Shown here in pieces: positions 1,110-56,952 of a stretch of DNA of 64,000 nt. The first letter of the stretch is position 1, and each line of letters begins with the position of its first letter. The translations under genes and the position numbers were made by a program. The notes beneath the pieces were generated by a model that ran no database searches, was not told the origin of the DNA, and worked only from the letters and a program-made list of their open reading frames with translations. The stretch lies in assembly GCA_963576735.1 (NCBI GenBank), contig OY755179.1, forward strand, positions 868,001 to 932,000, given 5' to 3'. The stretch comes from Bedellia somnulentella. Lineage: Eukaryota > Arthropoda > Insecta > Lepidoptera > Bedelliidae.

Positions 1110-1205
1110 GAACGTAAGGGAAGCAAGAGAGATTTGTCAAGATCGTTAAAGGTGGCAATCTCTGCCTGAATCAATGGGAATAATGGGCGTGAGTATAAGT
1201 AAGTT
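1110..1205 (+). pseudogene. RTE-like LINE 3' end, AAGT-tail subfamily
   Basis: The sequence GTAAGGGAAGCAAGAGAGAT and the following bases match the last ~30 codons of the RTE-like reverse transcriptase at 53.9-54.1 kb. The reading frame is broken by a stop after the QDR codons. It ends GGGCGTGAGTATAAGTAAGT, so the tail is AAGT-like, not TATG. Confidence 0.75.
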
Positions 1206-5738: not shown

Positions 5739-5955
5739 ACATACATACATACACACATACATATACATATACTCACGCCTTTAGTTCCTATTGGGGTAGG
5801 CAGAGACTATTGATCGCCACTTCGCACGATCCTGACAAAGCTCTTTAGCTTCGTTTACATCCATCAATCTTTTCATACATGCTCTTTTATTCTTCATACT
5901 TCGGACGCCAGCCTTTTTGAGCACACTCTCAATTTGGTCCAAGTGTGTTCTCCGA
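5739..5955 (-). pseudogene. RTE-like LINE 3' fragment with TSD
   Basis: Plus strand starts with an ACATACAT tail, then the complement of the stop region and coding end (GGGGTAGGCAGAG). It spans about the last 65 codons, with homology to HLDQIESVLKKAGVRS and NKRACMKRLMDV, plus point changes. It is flanked by a 13-bp TSD, ATTATTGAATAAT (5726-5738, 5956-5968). Confidence 0.9.
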
Positions 5956-11267: not shown

Positions 11268-11902
11268 ACGAAAGGAAAGTGTGATGAAGATATCGAGAGA
11301 AGAGTGAAAAAGGGTAATGCGGTAAATGGAGCACTGGATAGTCTAATGTCTAGTCAGTCGGTGTCTGAAAAGGCCCGAATGGCTGTGCATGATGCTGTCC
11401 TCGTTCCTACGCTTATGTATGGCAGTGAATGTTGGGTGTGGCAGAAGAAGCATGAAAGTAGAGTGAATGCAGTAGAAATGAGATCCCTCAGAAAAGTGTG
11501 TAATGTAAGGTTATGTGATCGTGTGAGGAATGATGTGATTCGTGAAAGGTGTGGTGTAAAAGATGATATTGTAAGAAAGATAGAAAAAGGAATGTTGAGA
11601 TGGTTCGGGCACATAGAGAGGATGGATGACAGTAAATTGGTGAAAGAGATATATAGAGCCAATGTGGAAGGTAATGTTAGTAGAGGACGACCTCGGAGGA
11701 CACATTTGGATCAAATAGAAAATGTGCTCAAAAAGGCAGGTGTCCGCAGTATGAAGAATAAAAGAGCATGTATGAAAAGATTGATGGATGTAAACGAAGC
11801 CAGAGAGGTTTGCCAGGATCGTACAAAGTGGCGATCGATAGTCTCTGCCTACCCCAATGGGAACTAACGGCGTGAGAATATGTATGTATGTATGTATGTA
11901 TG
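11268..11902 (+). pseudogene. RTE-like LINE, 5'-truncated, longest copy
   Basis: This is the end of a non-LTR retrotransposon reverse transcriptase; the open part from the first ATG is 11304-11867 (187 aa). Visible blocks are MYGSECWVWQKKHESRV, EMRSLRKVCNVRLCDRVRND, MLRWFGHIERMDD, RGRPRRTHLDQIE and QDRTKWRSIVSAYPNGN. These resemble the region downstream of the RT core in RTE-type elements. The catalytic RT core and endonuclease are absent, so the copy is dead. The stop lies only ~30 nt before the (TATG)n tail, giving a very short 3' UTR. TSD TAAAAACTATA at 11257-11267 and 11903-11913. The clade assignment (RTE) is inferred from the tail type, short 3' UTR and motifs. Confidence 0.88.
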
Positions 11903-11913
11903 TAAAAACTATA

Positions 11914-14574: not shown

Positions 14575-14755
14575 TATTGGTATTGGGGCTTTTAGGGGAT
14601 TTTTGGGCGATGCGGTTGGAGACCCATCACCAACAACCTTTATTTCACCATCTTTTCCCCGCGCAACTTCCAAAAGTGGCTGAGGAATTTCTTATTCCTT
14701 AGCTCTGGCTACCCCTTATAGGGATTTATAGCCGTGAGTATATGTATGTATGTAT
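14575..14755 (+). repeat. SINE1, 5'-truncated with TSD
   Basis: Begins inside the element at GTATTGGGGC and runs to the TATG tail. Flanked by AATGATAG on both sides (just before 14575 and from about 14757). Confidence 0.85.
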
Positions 14756-14761
14756 GTAATG

Positions 14762-15250
14762 ATAGATTTATCATGGTTGTTATCCTGAGGTTATTGCTGT
14801 GTAGTGTCGGCTTAGAATAGCACTACCCCATTTCTTACGGTGGGTGTACGTAAGAAGCGACTAACGGTATTGGGGCTTTTAAGGGATTTTTGGGCGATGC
14901 GGTTGGAGACCCATCACCAACAACCTTTATTTTACCATCTTTTCCCCACTTAACTTTCCAAAAGTGGCTGAGGAATTTTTAATTCCTTAGCTCTGGCTAC
15001 CCCATCTAGGGATTTATAGCAGTGAGTATATGTATGTATGTTATCCTGAGGAAACCCATGGCTGAGTTGTACTAAGTGATATGACAGTGTATTCGTACAA
15101 AACGGCGATAGGCCTGCCCCCTATCACGTGATTACACTGTCCAAGCAGAACGTAGGTACTCTGAACACCAGGTGACAATGTCACGTGATGTTCAGAAGTA
15201 TTAGTGAGTCTGCCAACCCTTTCAAGGATATACGGCGTGAACATTTGAGT
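14762..15250 (+). repeat. SINE2, 5'-truncated, split by SINE1
   Basis: Left part TTTATCATGGTTGTTA belongs to the SINE2 body. The rest resumes at 15052 with GAAACCCATGGCTGAGTTG and runs through the CACGTG blocks to GGCGTGAACATTTGAG. The SINE1 insertion is at 14796-15039. Confidence 0.85.
14796..15039 (+). repeat. SINE1 inside SINE2, with TSD
   Basis: Full-length copy flanked by GTTATCCTGAGG (14779-14790 and 15040-15051). A few extra bases (TTATT) lie between the left TSD and the element start. Confidence 0.92.
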
Positions 15251-22164: not shown

Positions 22165-22654
22165 GCTTATGTATGGCAGTGAATGTTGGGTGTGGTAGAA
22201 AAAGCATGAAAGCAGAGTGAATGCAGTAGAAATGAGGTCCCTCAGAAAAATTTGTAATGTAAGGTTACGCGATCGTGTGAGGAACGATGTGATTCGTGAA
22301 AGGTGTGGTGTAAAAGATGATATTGTAAGTAAGATAGAGAAAGGAATGTTGAGATGGTTTGGGCACATCGAGAGGATGGATGATAGGAAATTGGTAAAAG
22401 GTATCTATAGAGCTAATGTGAAAGGTAATGTTAGTAGAGGACGGCCACGAAAGACACACTTGGACCAAATTGAAAATGTGCTCAAAAAGGCAGGCGTCCG
22501 AAGTATGAAGAATAAAAGAGCATGTATGAAAAGATTGATGGATGTAGACGAAGCAAGAGAGGTTTGCCAGGATCGTACAAAGTGGCGATCGATAGTCTCT
22601 GCCTACCCCAATGGGAATTAACGGCGTGAGTATATGTATGTATGTATATGTATA
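22165..22654 (+). pseudogene. RTE-like LINE, 5'-truncated, with TSD
   Basis: Encodes the LINE C-terminal end (open part 22217-22621, 134 aa). It is nearly identical in protein to the 11.3-kb copy from EMRSLRKICNVRLRDRVRND to RSIVSAYPNGN. A stop replaces a tryptophan-region codon (GGTAGAAAAAGC) upstream, so the frame is broken there. TSD TGCTATGGGATTG at 22152-22164 and 22655-22667. Tail TATG. Confidence 0.9.
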
Positions 22655-26096: not shown

Positions 26097-26118
26097 TTGA
26101 AAACATATTATCACACAA

Positions 26119-26507
26119 CGTGACGACAACGTGATACGTGATACGACGTGATAGCTCAATGGGTAGAACACCGGTTAACGTGCAAGCGACTAGTGTTCAA
26201 ATCTCGGGTCGGGCCTACACCAATTTGTCTTTTCTAAAGACATATGTGTGGTTGATTTATCATGGTTGTTAACGGTGAGGGAAAACATAGTGAGGAAACC
26301 CACATGGCTGAGTTGTACTTAGTCATGTGACAGTGTATTCGTACAAAACGGCGATATGCCTGCCCCCTATTACGTGATTACACTGTCCATGCAAAACGTG
26401 GGTACTCTGAACACCAAGTGACAAAGTCACGTGATGTTCAGAAGTATTAGTACCTCTGCCAACCCCTTCGGGGATATTCGGCGTGAACGTTTATGTTATG
26501 TTATGTT
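26119..26507 (+). repeat. SINE2, full length, with TSD
   Basis: Head with A box TAGCTCAATGGG and a B-box-like GTGTTCAAATC, then the whole body and TTATG tail. TSD ATTATCACACAA at 26107-26118 and 26508-26519. The CACGTGAT motif near the 3' end is intact; the mid-body one is changed to TACGTG. Confidence 0.93.
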
Positions 26508-27878: not shown

Positions 27879-28131
27879 TTTTGCTGTGTAGTGTCGGCTT
27901 AGAATAGCACTACCCCTTTTCTTCCGGTGGGTGTACGTAAGAGGCGACTAACGCTATAGGGGCTTTTAAGGGATTTTTGGGCGATGCGGTTGGACACCCA
28001 TCACCAACAACCTTTATCTTCAACATCTTTTCCCCACGCAACTTCCAAAAGTGGCTGAGGAATTTCTAATTCCTTAGCTCTGGCTACCCCTTCTAGGGAT
28101 TTATAGCCGTGAGTATATGTATGTATGTATG
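27879..28131 (+). repeat. SINE1 with TSD
   Basis: GCTGTGTAGTGTCGGCTTAG to the TATG tail. TSD TATCCTCGTA at 27869-27878 and 28132-28141. Confidence 0.92.
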
Positions 28132-28289: not shown

Positions 28290-28686
28290 TGTTTCTTTCC
28301 TTTAATAACATCTTTTATTTATGAGTAATAATCCCCACATGAGGAATTCATGTCAAAAAACATTAAATTATGTGATAGTTAGGCGTTTCCAACATTTGCA
28401 TTCTATCTGAAAAGGTAGACAAGTGGCCGTCCTAATTAGTTAAAATTCGGAGGTAGGAAACGCAAACACTACTTGAACGTGTAAAAAAAGAAACAAAGGA
28501 TAGAGAAATTTCGCGCTGGATGCCAACTGACACTGTAGCTCAGTTGGCAGAGCGACGGGGGCATATACCCGAAGGTCGCGGGTTCGAACCCCGCCGGTGT
28601 CGAAATTTTTCTTTCCTTTAATAACATCTTTTATTTATGAGTAATAATCCCCACATGAGGGGATTCATGTCAAAAAACATTAAACA
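28290..28686 (+). repeat. SINE3 partial dimer
   Basis: A 3'-tail module (TTTCTTTCCTTTAATAAC to ATGTCAAAAAACATTAAA) is followed by a full unit: AT-rich leader, GAAACAAAGGATAGAG, the tRNA-like core, and a second copy of the tail module (28603-28686). The tail modules differ by few bases (GAGGAATTC versus GAGGGGATTC). No convincing TSD. Confidence 0.8.
28529..28602 (+). tRNA. tRNA-like core of SINE3 (likely pseudo-tRNA)
   Basis: Cloverleaf parts are visible: acceptor GACACTG with CGGTGTC (one T-G pair), D arm GCTC/GAGC, T arm GCGGG-TTCGAAC-CCCGC. A box TAGCTCAGTTGG and B box GGTTCGAACCC are intact. The anticodon arm (CGGG/CCCG) carries an extra base, giving an 8-nt loop, so the anticodon is ambiguous (GCATATA here, GCGTATA elsewhere). 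I judge it a Pol III promoter of a SINE, not a working tRNA gene. Confidence 0.6.
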
Positions 28687-31328: not shown

Positions 31329-33779
31329 GTGTATCCGATTCCAGAGCCTATACTTCAAAATTCAAAATTAATTACAAATAAAAATATTAATTATAATATT
31401 AAAAAAATTGAGACTAAATTAGGAGATGGGGACATAAAAGGGGCTGCACAAATGCTTTTTTCAAGCGACGCTGTGGCCCCTGATGACCAAGAGACTTTGG
31501 AGTCTTTGAGAGCAAAACATCCACTCTCATCAGAGTGGACGCCTGATGCTCCCGATTATACCGCTCACCCACCAGAAGCCACTCCAGCCGAGGTTCTCAT
31601 TGCTATATCTTCTTTCAGAAACGGTTCTGCTGGCGGCCTCGATGGACTGACTCCTCAGCATTTCAAAGATTTATTGAGTGTTTCCGTCGGGGAAGCCGGC
31701 AGAATTCTTTTGGATGAGATAACGCAGTTAGTTAATCTCTGCCTGAGTGGTAAAGTATCTCAAACCATCACAGATCTTTTATACGGGGCGAGTCTGTGTG
31801 CTTTGAAAAAGAAAGACGGAGGTATCAGGCCAATCGCTGTGGGAAACACTATCCGCCGGCTGGTATCCAAAATATGCTGTAAGCATGTAACGGACATAAA
31901 AAACTACTTCCAACCTGTTCAACTAGGTTTCGGAACCAGCGGCGGCTGTGAAGCAGCTGTTCACAGTGTTCGTGCTTTCCTGCAGCATTGCCGAAGTGAC
32001 GTTCTGTTGAAAGTGGATGTAAAGAATGCTTTCAACTCAGTTGATAGAGCCGCCTTGCTGGCTGCAGTCAAAGAACAAACTCCAGCTTTATACAATTACC
32101 TTTGGCAATGCTATAGCAAACCTACTAAATTGATCTACCGTGGAAAATTATTAAATTCATGTGTCGGTTGCCAGCAAGGTGACCCTCTGGGCCCAGCTAT
32201 ATTCAGTTTGGCTATACACCCACACATCAAAAACTTAGCCTCCAAGTTTAATGTGTGGTACCTGGATGACGGCACCATTGGAGGCGAGGCAAAACAAGTT
32301 ATAAACGATTTGAAAACAATAATAGAAGAATTCAAAAAACTTGGTCTAGATTTGAATTATGAAAAGTGTGAACTGTATTTTGGCCCCGATTTAAACAAAG
32401 AAACTGTTACAGAAATGCAATCAAAATTCAATTCATTAGCCCCAGGTATCAAAATTTTAAATTCGGCTTCGCTTCGCCTCCTAGGTGCCCCAGTTCTGGA
32501 TGATTCTATTCCAAAATTTATAGCAGAAAAAATTTCTAAATTTCAGGAATCATCTTCTTTATTGGCACAACTTAACCCTCATGTAGCATATACAATAATA
32601 AAGTATTGTTTGTTTGTTCCAAAATTTACTTATGTACTGAGATGTTCTGGTTTATGGAGGCAAATCTCAGTCCTTTCGGACATAGACAACGTGATTAAAA
32701 ACACTTTGATCAAAATTCTCAACATTTCCTTAAATGAACGCTGCTGGACACAAGCCACGCTCCCAATACGGTACGGTGGTATTGGCATCCGCAGCGTTTC
32801 AAGTATAGCCTTACCAGCTTTCTTGTCATCTGGTTTTGCCAATTACAATCTTTTCTTAAGCATCATTAGTAAAGCTTTAAGTTCGGCAGAGATCATCGAT
32901 CTCACAGATGCTAAGAAAGTTTGGATGGATATAGTTGGTCCTTCTGTCAATGTTCCCATCAGTCTGGCATCTCAGAGGCAATGGGACGAGCCCCTCTGCT
33001 GTCAAGTTCAAGCAAATCTTCTTAGTTCAGCTCTTGACTTGGCGGAGCGGGCGCGTCTCTTGGCTTGCTGTGAGCCAGATTCTGGGCATTGGTTGAGAGC
33101 ATTACCATCGAGCAACCTCGGCACATTGCTAGACAGAGGCTCCTTTTCTTTAGCTATGGGTCTGCGATTGGGCACCAAAATAAATGAGAGACATCGCTGC
33201 CGCTGTGGAGTATTTGTCGATCAGTTGGGGCACCATGGATTATCATGTCGTCGTAGTGCTGGTCGCATACCTCGCCATGCTGCAATCAATGATATTATCA
33301 GACGGGCCCTTACCACTGTCAACATACCAGCAATCCTGGAGCCATCAGGTTTGCTGCGGGACGATGGTAAGAGACCAGACGGAATGTCATTGATTCCATG
33401 GAAGAATGGGAGGACGCTGGTGTGGGACGCTACCTGCGTCGACACGCTAGCGCCGTCTCATTTGTCGGGGTCTGCATCTAAAGCTGGCACTGCGGCAGCT
33501 GAAGCTGAGGGTCTGAAGAGGCGCAAATATAGCAATTTAGCTGAGGAGCATTACTTCTCAGCTTTTGCTGTAGAGACTCTCGGTCCGTGGGGCCCAGATG
33601 CGCGTCGTTTTTTCAAAGAAATTTCGACGCGCCTGATCGAGAAATGCGGAGATCCGAGGGCTGGCGCATTCTTCGCTCAAAGAATCAGCTTAGCGATTCA
33701 AAGGGGTAATGCAGCCAGCCTTCTCGGAACCCTGCCACCAGGCGGCAGCGATTTCGAGAGTATTTTTTATATAATTTAA
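31329..33779 (+). CDS. Non-LTR retroelement RT with restriction-like endonuclease
   Basis: An uninterrupted retroelement protein. The frame is open from 31239; the listed start is a GTG, and the first in-frame ATG is at 31452 (775 aa from there). RT motifs, numbered from 31329: motif A VDVKNAFNSV (Asp 230), motif B QQGDPLGP (282-289), motif C WYLDDGT (Asp 313/314). Then a CCHC-type knuckle C624-x-C626...H635...C640. Then a restriction-like endonuclease pattern: RPDG (Asp 684), WDATC (Asp 700) and ExxKxxKY (727-734). In R2-type elements this layout nicks the target and copies the RNA onto it. The APE-type endonuclease of RTE/Jockey elements is absent. The N-terminus lacks the DNA-binding zinc fingers of full elements, so the copy may be 5'-truncated. 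Motif C is YLDD, not the usual ADD form. Clade (R2, HERO, Utopia or other) is not settled. Confidence 0.88.
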   Translation: MYPIPEPILQNSKLITNKNINYNIKKIETKLGDGDIKGAAQMLFSSDAVAPDDQETLESLRAKHPLSSEWTPDAPDYTAHPPEATPAEVLIAISSFRNGSAGGLDGLTPQHFKDLLSVSVGEAGRILLDEITQLVNLCLSGKVSQTITDLLYGASLCALKKKDGGIRPIAVGNTIRRLVSKICCKHVTDIKNYFQPVQLGFGTSGGCEAAVHSVRAFLQHCRSDVLLKVDVKNAFNSVDRAALLAAVKEQTPALYNYLWQCYSKPTKLIYRGKLLNSCVGCQQGDPLGPAIFSLAIHPHIKNLASKFNVWYLDDGTIGGEAKQVINDLKTIIEEFKKLGLDLNYEKCELYFGPDLNKETVTEMQSKFNSLAPGIKILNSASLRLLGAPVLDDSIPKFIAEKISKFQESSSLLAQLNPHVAYTIIKYCLFVPKFTYVLRCSGLWRQISVLSDIDNVIKNTLIKILNISLNERCWTQATLPIRYGGIGIRSVSSIALPAFLSSGFANYNLFLSIISKALSSAEIIDLTDAKKVWMDIVGPSVNVPISLASQRQWDEPLCCQVQANLLSSALDLAERARLLACCEPDSGHWLRALPSSNLGTLLDRGSFSLAMGLRLGTKINERHRCRCGVFVDQLGHHGLSCRRSAGRIPRHAAINDIIRRALTTVNIPAILEPSGLLRDDGKRPDGMSLIPWKNGRTLVWDATCVDTLAPSHLSGSASKAGTAAAEAEGLKRRKYSNLAEEHYFSAFAVETLGPWGPDARRFFKEISTRLIEKCGDPRAGAFFAQRISLAIQRGNAASLLGTLPPGGSDFESIFYII

Positions 33780-38849: not shown

Positions 38850-39118
38850 AGTCTTTATTTCCCATTGGGGTAGGCAGAGACTATCGGTTGCCACTTTATA
38901 GGATCCTGGCAAACCTCTCAAGCTTCGTTTTTACCATCAATCTTTTCAACATGCTTCTTTATTCTTCATACTTTGGACACCCTCCTCTTTGAGCATACTC
39001 TTTATTTAATCTAAATGTGGTCCTCCGTGGTCGTTCTCTACTAACATTACCTTCCATGTTAGCTTTATAGATCTCTTTCACCAATTTACTGTCATCCATC
39101 CATATCCATTTAAGATAT
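38850..39118 (-). pseudogene. RTE-like LINE fragment
   Basis: Complement of the LINE 3' coding end from the stop region (CCCATTGGGGTAGGCAGAG) to the AAATTGGTGAAAGAGATCTA region, with indels. No tail is visible at the left edge. Confidence 0.8.
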
Positions 39119-39214
39119 ACATACATACATACATATTCTCACGCCGTTAGTTCCCATTGGGGTAGGCAGAGACTATCGATCGCCACTTTGTACGATCCTG
39201 GCAAACCTCTCAAG
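39119..39214 (-). pseudogene. Second RTE-like LINE fragment, head to tail
   Basis: Tail CATACATACATACATATTC, stop region and ~20 codons. Short flanking repeat AAGATATA on both sides. It lies directly beside the previous fragment. Confidence 0.8.
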
Positions 39215-46439: not shown

Positions 46440-46640
46440 CTTATTCATATTTACGCCCGTTATTCCCATTGGGTAGGCATTGACTATTGATTCCAACATT
46501 ATACAATCTTTACCTAACTCTTTATCTTCCATTACAGCACAACATTCTTATCATTAATTCTTATTTACACTGCTGACTCCTACCTTTGATATAATACTTA
46601 GCATATCCACCAATTACAAAACCATTTATATCGGTTCATT
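46440..46640 (-). pseudogene. RTE-like LINE remnant, degenerate
   Basis: TTACGCCCGTTATTCCCATT, GGGTAGGCATTGACTATTGA and later scattered blocks match the complement of the LINE end. It resembles the AAGT subfamily (GGAATAATGGGCG). No frame left. Confidence 0.65.
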
Positions 46641-46739: not shown

Positions 46740-47246
46740 ATAAATAAAGAATAAATAAAGGAAAGAAAAATCCCGCCTGTGTCGAAATTTTTCTTTCCTT
46801 TATTTATTCTTTATTTATCCGTAATAACGTAGGCAACCGTGATAGCCCAGTGGATAGAACACTCGGTTATCGTGCAAACGACTAGTTTTCGAATCCTGGG
46901 TCGGGCCTACACCAATTTGTCTTTTCTAAAGACATATGTGTGGTTAATTTATCATGGTTGTTAACGGTGAGGGAAACATCGTGAGGAAACCCACATGGCT
47001 GAGTTGTCCTTAGTCATGTGACAGTGTGTTCGTACAAAACGACGATAGGCCTGCCCCCTATCACGTGAGAACACTGTCCATGCAAAACGTGGGTACTCTG
47101 AACACCAGGTGGCAAAGTCACGTGATGTTCAGAAGTATTAGTACCTCTGCCAACCCCTTCGGGGATATTCGGCGTGAACGTTTATGTTATGTTATTATCC
47201 GTAATAATCCCCACATGAGGTTTTCATGAACAAAAAGATTTAAATC
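46740..47246 (+). repeat. SINE3 fold-back, split by SINE2
   Basis: Left of the centre are TTTATTCTTTATTTATCC-type sequences in inverted form, then TGTGTCGAAATTTTTCTTTC and the direct tail. After the SINE2 the tail ends TTTTCATGAACAAAAAGATT. Very little of the tRNA-like core remains. Outer TSD ATAGATTACGG at 46729-46739 and 47247-47257. Confidence 0.88.
46828..47194 (+). repeat. SINE2, full length, inside SINE3, with TSD
   Basis: Head with TAGCCCAGTGGATAG in place of the usual A box and TTTTCGAATCC at the B box. Body and TTATG tail complete, with two CACGTG motifs. TSD TTATCCGTAATAA at 46815-46827 and 47195-47207. Confidence 0.93.
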
Positions 47247-49207: not shown

Positions 49208-49281
49208 CGACACTGGCGGGGTTCGAACCCGCGACCTTCGGGTATACGCCCCCGTCGCTCTGCCAACTGAGCTACAGTGTC
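49208..49281 (-). tRNA. tRNA-like core, SINE3 unit 1
   Basis: Acceptor GACACTG pairs perfectly with CAGTGTC. T arm GCGGG/CCCGC intact. Anticodon loop has 8 nt (GGCGTATA). Likely pseudo-tRNA. Confidence 0.6.
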
Positions 49282-49544: not shown

Positions 49545-49618
49545 CGACACTGGCGGGGTTCGAACCCGCGACCTTCGGGTATACGCCCCCGTCGCTCTGC
49601 CAACTGAGCTACAGTGTC
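49545..49618 (-). tRNA. tRNA-like core, SINE3 unit 2
   Basis: Same sequence as unit 1. A third copy at about 49750-49808 (plus) lacks the acceptor 5' strand and most of the D arm. Confidence 0.6.
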
Positions 49619-50053: not shown

Positions 50054-50307
50054 CATACATACATACATATACTCACGCCGTTAATTCCCATTGGGGTAGG
50101 CAGAGACTATCGATCGCCACTTCGTACGATCCTGGCAAACCTCTCTTGCTTCGTCTACATTCATCAATCTTTTCATACATGCTCTTTTATTCTTCATACT
50201 TCGGACGCCTGCCTTTTTTAGCACACTTTCAATTTGGTCCAAGTGTGTCTTTCGTGGCCGTCCTCTACTAACATTACCTTCCACATTAGCTCTATAGATA
50301 CCTTTTA
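50054..50307 (-). pseudogene. RTE-like LINE fragment with TSD
   Basis: Encodes GIYRANVEGNVSRGRPRKTH to RSIVSAYPNGN without a stop inside the LINE part. TSD CGATTATATTA at 50043-50053 and 50308-50318. Tail TATG. Confidence 0.92.
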
Positions 50308-50386
50308 CGATTATATTATTATAACGAATAGTGCAAAAAAATATCCGCATCTGTTATAAAGTTATAATTTATGTACAATCTACAAT

Positions 50387-51770: not shown

Positions 51771-52134
51771 ACATAACATAACATAAACGTTCACGCCGAA
51801 TATCCCCGAAGGGGTTGGCAGAGGTACTAATGCTTCTGAACATCACGTGACTTTGTCACCTGGTGTTCAGAGTACCCACGTTTTGCATGGACAGTGTACT
51901 CACGTGATACGGGGCAGGCCTATCGCCGTTTTGTACGAATACACTGTCACATGACTAAGTACAACTCAGCCATGTGGGTTTCCTCACGATGTTTTCCCTC
52001 ACCGTTAACAACCATGATAAATTAACCACACATATGACTTTAGAAAAGACAAATTGGTGCAGGCCCGACCCAGAATTGGAACTCACGCCCTTCTGTTTTC
52101 GGGCGGGTGTTCTATCCACTGGACTATCATGTCG
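51771..52134 (-). repeat. SINE2, full length, alternative head
   Basis: TTATG tail at left, body, then a head reading (minus) CATGATAGTCCAGTGG and GAAAACAGAAGGGCGTG. The same head occurs at 58.55 kb. Both borders abut the ~100-bp direct repeats. Confidence 0.92.
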
Positions 52135-52230
52135 TCTTTAATAATAATAAGATGTTAAGTCAATAATTTATTTTTGATATCTCACAGCACTCCTATAACA
52201 AAGAATAGTAAGTTTACACAGTAACTAGTA
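52135..52230 (+). repeat. ~100-bp direct repeat right of SINE2
   Basis: Second copy of 51670-51770, starting directly at the SINE2 5' end. Confidence 0.92.
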
Positions 52231-53304: not shown

Positions 53305-53881
53305 TAACTGTAGGTGTCGAACTACCAAAAATGGCTAAAAAATCATGATTCCAAAGCTCTAGTTATCTTTTTAGGGACCATAAAATTGAGTATAGGTTGG
53401 GTAAGGTCAAAAAAGTAGTCATGGGTCGTAAAATTATTTCAATGTTGCTTTCAAATAATATATCTTACAGTTTATTTTTTGCTATTACATGTAAACATTT
53501 ACTCTGTTTTGAACAATGAGGTTATATTGTACATATAACCTCATTGGTTTTGAACAATATTCTTTATAATAATGAACTACGGAAAGAAAAAGGCTATAAA
53601 ATATACATTGTAAGACAAAGCAACAAACTTAAGGACTTTAAATTTAATGTGTCAATTAGCTCCGCACCGTAGTAAACTTTATGATTACTTATACAAATAA
53701 AAACTGTTGTAATAAAATAATATTTCTTCATTAATAATGATTTATTTATGAAGGGTTATTTATTAGATAATCTTATTACGTCTTTACAACTTAAAAACGT
53801 ATACGTTTACTCATATTTCTGTTCAGTCTTGGCTTAGAATAGCACTATCCTTCGTAATGTAATATTATATTATATGATGAA
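53305..53881. other. Mostly non-repetitive, small repeats
   Basis: A SINE1-like hairpin scrap lies at about 53320-53395. A 5' SINE1 scrap (TTGGCTTAGAATAGCACTAT) lies at 53829-53848. A 31-bp palindrome is listed separately. Confidence 0.5.
53506..53558. repeat. 31-bp palindrome between 12-bp direct repeats
   Basis: AATGAGGTTATA and TATAACCTCATT (53515-53526, 53534-53545) with a 7-nt loop form a perfect stem. GTTTTGAACAAT flanks it on both sides (53506-53517 and 53547-53558). Confidence 0.85.
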
Positions 53882-54144
53882 AATAAAGTAGCGACAGAGA
53901 TATATAGAGCCAATGTGAATGGGAATGTAAGTAGAGGACGGCCTCGTAAAACGTTTCTTGACCAGATAGAAAACGTTCTTATAAAGGCGGGGGTCCGAAG
54001 TGAGAAGAATAAAAGGGCATGTATGAGAAGAATAATGAATGTAAGGGAAGCAAGAGAGGTTTGTCAAGATCGTACTAAGTGGCGATCGATAATCTCTGCC
54101 TACCCCAATGGGAATAATGGGCGTGAGTATAAGTAAGTAAGTAA
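53882..54144 (+). pseudogene. RTE-like LINE fragment, AAGT-tail subfamily
   Basis: Encodes IYRANVNGNVSRGRPRKTFL, then IKAGVRSEKNKRACMRRIMN and WRSIISAYPNGN. The codon after the final N is AAT, not TAA, so the stop is lost and the frame runs into the tail (NGREYK). Tail AAGTAAGTAAGT. It lacks a clear TSD. Confidence 0.85.
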
Positions 54145-56588: not shown

Positions 56589-56599
56589 TATGCTCAAAG

Positions 56600-56952
56600 T
56601 GAAAAGTGTGGTGTGAAAGATGATATTGTAAGCAAGATAGAAAAAGGAATGTTGAGATGGTTTGGGCACATAGAGAGGATGGATGATAGAAAATTGGTAA
56701 AAGGGATCTATAGAGCTAGTGTGGATGGTAATGTTAGTAGAGGACGACCACGGAGAACACACTTGGACCAAATTGAGAGTGTGCTCAAAAAGGCTGGCGT
56801 CCGAAGTATGAAGAATAAAAGAGCATGCATGAAAAGATTGATGGATGTAAACGAAGCTAGAGAGGTTTGTCAGGATCCTACGAAGTGGCGATCAATAGTC
56901 TCTGCCTACCCCAATGGGAACTAATGACGTGAGTATATGTATGTATGTATGT
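56600..56952 (+). pseudogene. RTE-like LINE fragment with TSD
   Basis: Encodes KCGVKDDIVSKIEKGMLRWF to RSIVSAYPNGN with an intact stop; the ORF upstream of 56600 is flank. TSD ATATGCTCAAA at 56589-56599 and 56953-56963. Confidence 0.93.

Follow-up and report, generated by a model that had tools for sequence, protein, structure and literature searches.

Two SINE families of Bedellia somnulentella carry the 3′ tail of an RTE-like LINE that overlaps the end of the LINE open reading frame

Results

LINE-A and its copies

The 64-kb stretch of DNA analysed here (the window; 35% GC) contains a 5′-truncated copy of a LINE, LINE-A, in which the 3′ end of the open reading frame (ORF) lies at 11271..11867 (+) and encodes the C-terminus ...SIVSAYPNGN followed by a TAA stop codon (11865-11867). 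Positions 11274-11882 are 99.8% identical to a full-length genomic LINE copy. The tail of the element (11843..11882, +) consists of the last 25 nt of the ORF, stop codon included, and a 15-nt 3′ UTR, and is followed by the (TATG)n microsatellite that forms the element end (11883..11904, +) and overlaps the start of a target-site repeat of about 12 nt (TAAAAACTATAA). That the tail overlaps the ORF end had been claimed in a preliminary description of this DNA, and the position of the TAA within the tail agrees with it; the 3′ UTR, given there as ~30 nt, is corrected to 15 nt plus the repeat. As to the tail letters given there, the copy at 11843 reads GGCGTGAGAATATG, and GTATATG is present in several other copies of the window.

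Further 3′ copies of LINE-A were found at 22165..22636 (+), 50066..50308 (-), 56599..56939 (+) and 5766..5955 (-), with 93.0, 90.9, 91.2 and 90.0% identity to the full-length copy, respectively. Those other LINE-A copies of the window for which blastn gave long alignments show 87-93% identity with the full-length LINE, and one tail copy of 80 nt (39132..39211, -) is 100% identical to it. Between this 80-nt copy and a LINE-A copy at 38855-39101 there is only repeat, in a nested or back-to-back insertion. The window also holds a different retroelement, with an 816-aa open frame at 31329-33779 (+) and a reverse transcriptase (RT) domain (RVT_1, E 2.4e-27), and tRNA gene matches above the Rfam threshold at 28529-28602 (+), 49208-49281 (-) and 49545-49618 (-), the last two with equal score.

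A protein search was performed against the genome (548.9 Mb, 486 contigs). The best 150 of 64537 loose candidates were all 100% identical over at least the 197 last residues; as these were chosen for their likeness to the query, the 100% identity overstates the youth of the LINE family. An open frame of 1058 codons was found in 28 of these best 150 copies, and the LINE has young, apparently intact copies. In each of 12 fetched copies with the 1058-codon frame the first ATG is codon 25, giving a product of 1034 aa, and all 12 end with the C-terminus ..SIVSAYPNGN-TAA, followed by CGGCGTGAGAATATG and the repeat, which is slightly disturbed in copy L043. The 5′ end is intact to ~6 nt in 10 of the 12, the remaining two beginning at LINE positions 98 and 162, and the length is ~3.39 kb without the repeat. 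The fetched full-frame copies show 98.6-100% identity to one among them.

The LINE is laid out with a 5′ UTR of about 270 nt, one ORF of 1034 aa, a 3′ UTR of 15 nt plus the repeat, and target-site duplications. Domain analysis of the single ORF (copy L033, 1034 aa) revealed an endonuclease (PF14529, Exo_endo_phos_2; E 1.7e-8) and an RT (PF00078, RVT_1; E 4.9e-36), with Exo_endo_phos just under its cutoff; the RT matches solved-structure chains of human LINE-1 ORF2 and of R2. Among the relatives of the ORF end (n=62 proteins) every named source is lepidopteran (Pectinophora, Plutella, Phthorimaea, Cydia, Spodoptera, Eumeta, Parnassius and others). We filed the LINE as RTE-like from its layout and its likeness to published lepidopteran RTEs. 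The preliminary description had called it RTE-like and asked for its full RT, which the full-length genomic copies have now provided; the single endonuclease and RT ORF, the short repeat-ended 3′ UTR and the flanking repeats bear that assignment out.

In one genomic locus, L047, the LINE tail plus the repeat forms a 63-bp unit that is tandemly repeated in two arrays (1079-1425 and 2532-2880, about 5.5 copies each); a small satellite seems to have arisen here from the tail.

A tail common to LINE and SINE copies

With a profile made from eight variants of the tail, 68 matches were obtained in the window, 59 of them above 10.4 bits, the top score reached in 640 kb of first-order Markov sequence. 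Sorted by eye according to the sequence preceding the tail, these 59 comprise 8 LINE-A, 3 LINE-B, 10 SINE2 and 38 SINE1-type tails, and single-copy blast of the window gave a picture in agreement with these classes. The tail motif reads CTCTG[C/G]C[T/A]ACCCC-loop-GGGA-spacer-G[G/C]CGTGA, followed by (TATG)n or (TTATG)n.

The LINE and SINE1 tails are identical at 32 of 40 aligned positions, with 2 gap columns, and their score was reached by none of 2000 SINE1 shuffles and none of 2000 tail shuffles. For the LINE and SINE2 tails the identity is 30 of 40, again with 2 gap columns, and the score was reached by 1 of 2000 SINE2 shuffles and 0 of 2000 tail shuffles. Outside the tails, SINE1 and SINE2 compared with the LINE ORF end stay within shuffle range, as do the SINE1 and SINE2 bodies compared with each other. 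The preliminary description had two short elements carrying the 3′ end of the LINE; the shared tail is real, with 59 window tails outscoring the best of the simulated sequence and with the shuffle statistics to the same effect.

Exact flanking repeats of at least 9 nt (longest taken) were present in 5 of 6 LINE copies tested, 10 of 23 SINE1 copies and 4 of 5 SINE2 copies, as raw counts, some of the repeats overlapping the TATG repeat. The one LINE copy without such a repeat is the LINE-B one. In viral contigs neither the tail and head patterns nor the LINE protein were found, and against genome contigs the LINE protein gave one weak match, of 27% identity, in a bacterial MAG. A nucleotide search of the genome with the tail returned no match, which is uninformative since very common words are skipped in it, and the tail words, looked for in the literature, led to two unrelated papers.

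SINE1 carries both ends of the LINE

A SINE1 copy at 14795..15032 (+) is composed of a head (14795-14880) corresponding to the LINE 5′ end, a body, and a tail (14991-15032); the tail of a second copy lies at 14703..14744 (+). The full-length LINE starts with GCTGTGTAGTGCCGGCATAGAATAGCACTACCCC... and SINE1 with GCTGTGTAGTGTCGGCTTAGAATAGCACTACCCC..., and the SINE1 majority sequence aligns with the LINE 5′ end over 86 nt with a score of 103, the shuffle maximum being 30 (n=500). Window stretches matching LINE positions 1-88 number 29, all at SINE1 5′ ends and with 71-86% identity; LINE positions 89-2782 have no match in the window at E up to 1e-5. The 5′ terminus of SINE1 is therefore that of the LINE, and its 3′ terminus is that of the LINE as well. 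The preliminary description had two unrelated SINE heads; we reject this, since full-length genomic LINE copies begin with the SINE1 head, i.e. the LINE's own first ~85 nt. With such a head, SINE1 combines the two ends of the LINE in one composite element, like Bov-A2.

The SINE1 body scored 19 against a LINE copy, the shuffle mean being 19.85. Derivation of the body from LINE positions 87-400 was considered and is not supported, 698 of 2000 shuffles being equally good. As the body has no recognisable match to this LINE, SINE1 was filed as a composite and not as a pure internal-deletion derivative. Divergence of SINE1 from its majority sequence is 7.5% on average (23 copies), and the age range of the LINE-A window copies overlaps that of SINE1.

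Directly 5′ of the tail, SINE1 has a hairpin of its own (for example, 28056..28077, +). Across 30 distinct rows of an alignment of 35 of the 37 copies (two with shifted spacing left out), 4 of its 9 pairs are doubly changed, a number reached by 7 of 500 shuffles. The SINE1 3′ end including this hairpin folds better than shuffles (z -2.89).

SINE2 and its tRNA-like head

Full copies of SINE2 reach further 5′ than the preliminary description saw. Near full-length copies, with approximate 5′ limits, lie at 26110..26495 (+), 46795..47186 (+) and 51782..52170 (-), and the 3′ part of another at 15051..15249 (+; tail 15208-15249). The copy at 26110 has a tRNA-like head, recognised by eye, and a tail (26454-26495) ending in (TTATG)n. 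In the head, box A and box B were assigned as TAGCCCAGTGG and GTTCAAATCC by eye in an alignment; a match to the head came neither from Rfam's tRNA model nor from ARAGORN under relaxed settings. SINE2 looks tRNA-headed, as Bov-tA is. Its LINE-like tails continue with GTGAAC and (TTATG)n, and match LINE-A less well than do those of SINE1.

In the SINE2 body (e.g. 26295-26492), the stretch CGGCGATAGGCC..CCTATCACG resembles the LINE near the ORF start, with 16 of 2000 shuffles as good. The body may include LINE 5′ sequence, although this is suggestive only. A SINE2 subfamily (window 58871, L035:51-92, L051:3684-3725 and L051:8931-8972) has its upstream hairpin changed from GTGAC..GTCAC to ATGGC..GCCAT, with two compensated pairs by eye.

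Folding of the tail

The tail at 11843..11882 can fold as CUC-UGCC..CCC(loop)GGG..GGCG-U-GAG. The same general fold is available to five tail types, with a bulged outer stem CUC-UG[C/G]C / G[G/C]CG-U-GAG round an inner CCC/GGG hairpin, the outer stem being one pair shorter in SINE2. Compared with shuffles, z was -0.61 for LINE-A, -1.74 for LINE-B, -1.68 and -2.10 for SINE1 and -0.36 for SINE2; with flanks it was +0.16 for the LINE and -0.89 for SINE2. The LINE tail alone is thus no more stable than its shuffles.

Over 50 tails (43 distinct), 88.9% of the pairing cells can pair, and this falls to 33-41% on shifting the partner by 1-3 columns. The observed pairing, like the observed covariation score, was reached by 0 of 500 shuffles, a control in which relatedness remains. 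Four tail pairs are doubly changed, as many as in 75 of 500 shuffles, and the number of pair types is reached by 198 of 500; RNAalifold, run on the same alignment, gave six pairs only, at -1.98 kcal/mol.

One clean family-level swap was found, at pair 6-31 of the enclosing stem, which is C-G in the LINE and SINE2 and G-C in SINE1. A pattern search of the window and eight arbitrary 10-kb genome stretches (80 kb) yielded 61 tails, of which 53 have a Watson-Crick pair at this position, 27.6 being expected with independent columns; only tails with intact neighbours fit the pattern, and it was window tails that first drew attention to the swap. By class, the pair is C-G in 9 of 10 LINE and 12 of 15 SINE2 tails and G-C in 29 of the 36 others. 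The swap is a single event repeated across many copies. The small CCC...GGG stem named in the preliminary description is indeed present in the tails, but with one double change in 43 distinct rows it is nearly invariant and, for that reason, weak evidence. The fold and covariation check proposed there had a divided outcome, with like folds and the swap in the enclosing stem on the one side and double changes not above shuffles on the other.

Position of the stop codon

Seen as DNA, the stop codon precedes GGCGTGAG in LINE-A and lies beyond it in LINE-B. In the LINE-B copy at 53876..54132 (+) the frame crosses the whole tail (..SAYPNGNNGREYK stop): at 54094, GGG CGT GAG codes for Gly-Arg-Glu and the frame does not close until the repeat, two decayed copies being similar. 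Degenerate LINE-B tail copies lie at 46447..46479 (-) and 1161..1198 (+).

The union of three protein searches (one with 62 of 62 matches used, the other two with the top 120 of 3591 and of 801) gave 198 relatives, 66 of which end near SxYP, with the motif at most 14 residues from the end. Of these, 55 finish in Ala exactly five residues later, as GCG TGA predicts; the stop apparently lies inside GGCGTGAG in 55 of the 66, the codons being inferred from the peptides. Two proteins, P0014 and P0092, end with or run on through ..RRE.., which corresponds to the third reading frame (codons again inferred). The stop lies before, apparently inside or beyond GGCGTGAG in LINE-A, most of these relatives and LINE-B, respectively, and this shift suggests a frame-independent RNA constraint on the tail.

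The residue y before the terminal Ala has a codon that can end in G in 54 of 55 cases, the background share of residues without such a codon being 23% (binomial 1e-5, kinship ignored). Among ten ends of the form P-x-R-D-y-A, nine have A, V, E or G as x, vs. 2 of 41 P-x-G ends; codons that spell out a CCC-GNRA-GGG hairpin would give this pattern. Both patterns rest on codons deduced from peptides and were noticed in the same data; nine of the ten RD ends had been seen before the prediction was made, P0166 being the sole addition. In P0166 x=A fits the prediction, whereas SDYP does not fit the outer-stem pairing. In P0074 (SGYP..CA) and P0166 (SDYP..KA) the second residue of SAYP is changed without a matching opposite change, as judged from the inferred codons.

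Discussion

A common tail sequence, homology of the SINE1 head, flanking repeats and open full-length LINE frames are observed in the DNA. With a probability of about 80%, we interpret them as an RTE-like LINE with a 3′-terminal recognition element that is used by a two-ended composite, SINE1, and by SINE2 with its tRNA-like head. The putative template-recognition element would lie at the extreme 3′ end of the LINE, as a bulged stem-loop (34-36 nt) with (TATG)n behind it; as the 3′ UTR has only 15 nt plus the repeat, over half of this element would be made of the last ORF codons and the stop. SINE1 consists of the first ~85 nt of the LINE, a body and the LINE 3′ tail, and SINE2 of a tRNA-like head, a different body and the same tail type. 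The LINE RT would bind the tail RNA and prime cDNA at a nicked target in the repeat, giving rise to target-site duplications, and both SINEs would borrow this RT via the tail. The flanking repeats at LINE, SINE1 and SINE2 copies support such a target-primed route. To judge from sequence, binding of the tail by the RT, trans-mobilisation, and movement of SINE2 by the LINE-A family itself rather than by a sister are probable steps.

On the last of these steps, an appreciable chance, though well short of an even one, must be given to a different RTE family in this genome, one ending in (TTATG)n, as the mover of SINE2, with LINE-A moving SINE1 only. The identity of 30/40 between the SINE2 and LINE-A tails, the other repeat unit, and GTGAAC in place of GTGAGT would all fit such a partner, and lepidopteran SINEs with an equivalent repeat are in print (SlituSE1, (ATGTT)n; SlNPVSE1, (TGTTA)n). 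However, inspection by eye of the tails in the window and in 248 kb of other loci, mostly chosen for LINE-A, revealed no such LINE; for the latter loci the survey covered matches of at least 13 bits, 44 LINE-A-type tails excepted. The head of SINE1 could also be read in the reverse direction, with a SINE1-like head acquired by the LINE at its 5′ terminus and SINE1 not built from the LINE. Head homology alone is without direction, and the SINE1 body is not recognisably from the LINE; yet elements with RTE 5′ and 3′ ends are called common in the available text of PMC7245038 and in Table 1 of PMC3747384, and we consider the reverse course unlikely.

The tail might instead be constrained as protein only, through the SAYP motif, with the short elements having inherited it and the RNA fold being irrelevant. 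SAYP is nearly invariant in relatives with visible ends, the LINE tail folds no better than shuffles, and P0074 and P0166 do not have the opposite change that pairing would predict. But GGCGTGAG, which forms the 3′ half, persists in the SINE tails, where it does not code, downstream of the LINE-A stop and in another frame in LINE-B, as also, by inferred codons, in P0014 and P0092 (..RRE..), and pair 6-31 is swapped between families. We therefore regard a purely protein constraint as very unlikely, and favour a tail used as RNA by the LINE and both SINEs.

A further reading, of low probability, joins these observations. The template mark of the RT might be a frame-independent RNA element that the ribosome translates through or stops on, the stop falling within the 3′ arm of the hairpin in most of the relatives (55 of 66 ends, with GCG TGA as inferred codons), so that selection on RNA would write the last residues of the protein. 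Termination on the mark could then couple translation to template choice and favour the LINE's own RNA, while the untranslated SINEs would escape ribosome traffic.

Comparison with known systems

Tails of the eel UnaL2/UnaSINE1 type lie in the 3′ UTR, are not known to overlap an ORF and belong to another LINE clade. They work like the present tail in being recognised by the RT, which is putative here. The eel experiments are mentioned in the available part of PMC3747384.

The preliminary description considered two SINE heads on one tail overlapping the LINE ORF more unusual; two heads on one RTE tail are already published for Helicoverpa, Plutella/Spodoptera, ruminants and springhare, so the system is of a known kind. 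According to Table 1 of PMC3747384, Bov-A2, with the 5′ end of BovB, and tRNA-derived Bov-tA occur on one Bov-B tail in ruminants, two SINE heads occur on one RTE tail in springhare, and opossum and elephant have elements that carry the 5′ end of an RTE. The Bov-B system resembles ours in having an RTE-clade LINE, a short element headed by the LINE 5′ end, a tRNA-headed SINE and a common tail; it differs in animal group and sequence, and the SINE1 body here is not recognisably LINE. In hagfish, the available text of PMC7245038 describes SINE1-1_EBu and relatives with RTE 5′ UTR and 3′ pieces and calls such two-ended derivatives common. There, too, several SINE families have one RTE tail and both RTE ends are used, but the heads are 7SL or tRNA and the host is a vertebrate.

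Closer cases come from Lepidoptera, as far as the texts available of these papers go. Wang et al. (PMC3272025) described HaSE1 (tRNA) and HaSE3 (5S rRNA) with the HaRTE1.1 tail in one species of Helicoverpa, the 3′-terminal 43 bp of HaSE1 being 82% identical to the LINE end and HaSE3 having body and tail in common with HaSE1. It shares with our case an RTE LINE with a short repeat-ended 3′ UTR, whereas the repeat is (TGA)n and the second SINE is 5S-headed; in the text available, figures excluded, we found neither a SINE headed by LINE 5′ sequence nor any mention of the tail overlapping the ORF. Han et al. (PMC8010984) reported 84% identity between the 43-bp end of PxLINE1.1 and PxSE5 (5S, Plutella), and 56 bp in common (89.6%) between PxSE5 and tRNA-headed SfSE1 of Spodoptera. 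PxLINE1.1 is similar to LINE-A in its (ATGT)n repeat and as a 3228-bp LINE with endonuclease and RT, but the two SINE heads belong to separate species; its main text uses neither 'stem' nor 'stop codon'. HmRTE-e01 (PMC2887409) has a single ORF of 990 aa (vs. 1034 aa here), a 5′ UTR of 276 bp (vs. about 270), a 14-bp 3′ UTR (vs. 15 nt) with a repeat, and TSDs; it differs in the repeat unit, and a SINE partner is not described in the part of the paper available. The butterfly SINE Metulj is a suspected RTE user (PMC6685494, available text). In the parts of the open-licence literature covered, figures excluded, we found no discussion of frame independence of the tail or of a stop within the hairpin, and the conceptual translations in two of these papers may well show the overlap of ORF and tail.

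The present genome offers, side by side, a LINE some of whose copies are young, full-length and open in frame, and parasites of two kinds, together with a putative recognition element in which pairing, frame and stop position vary between families. This makes it testable what an RTE RT reads on its own RNA, and whether a ribosome crossing the mark helps or hinders the LINE vs. its parasites. The sharing of a retrotransposon tail by SINEs described here is a neat fresh case of a well-known parasitism rather than a new system.
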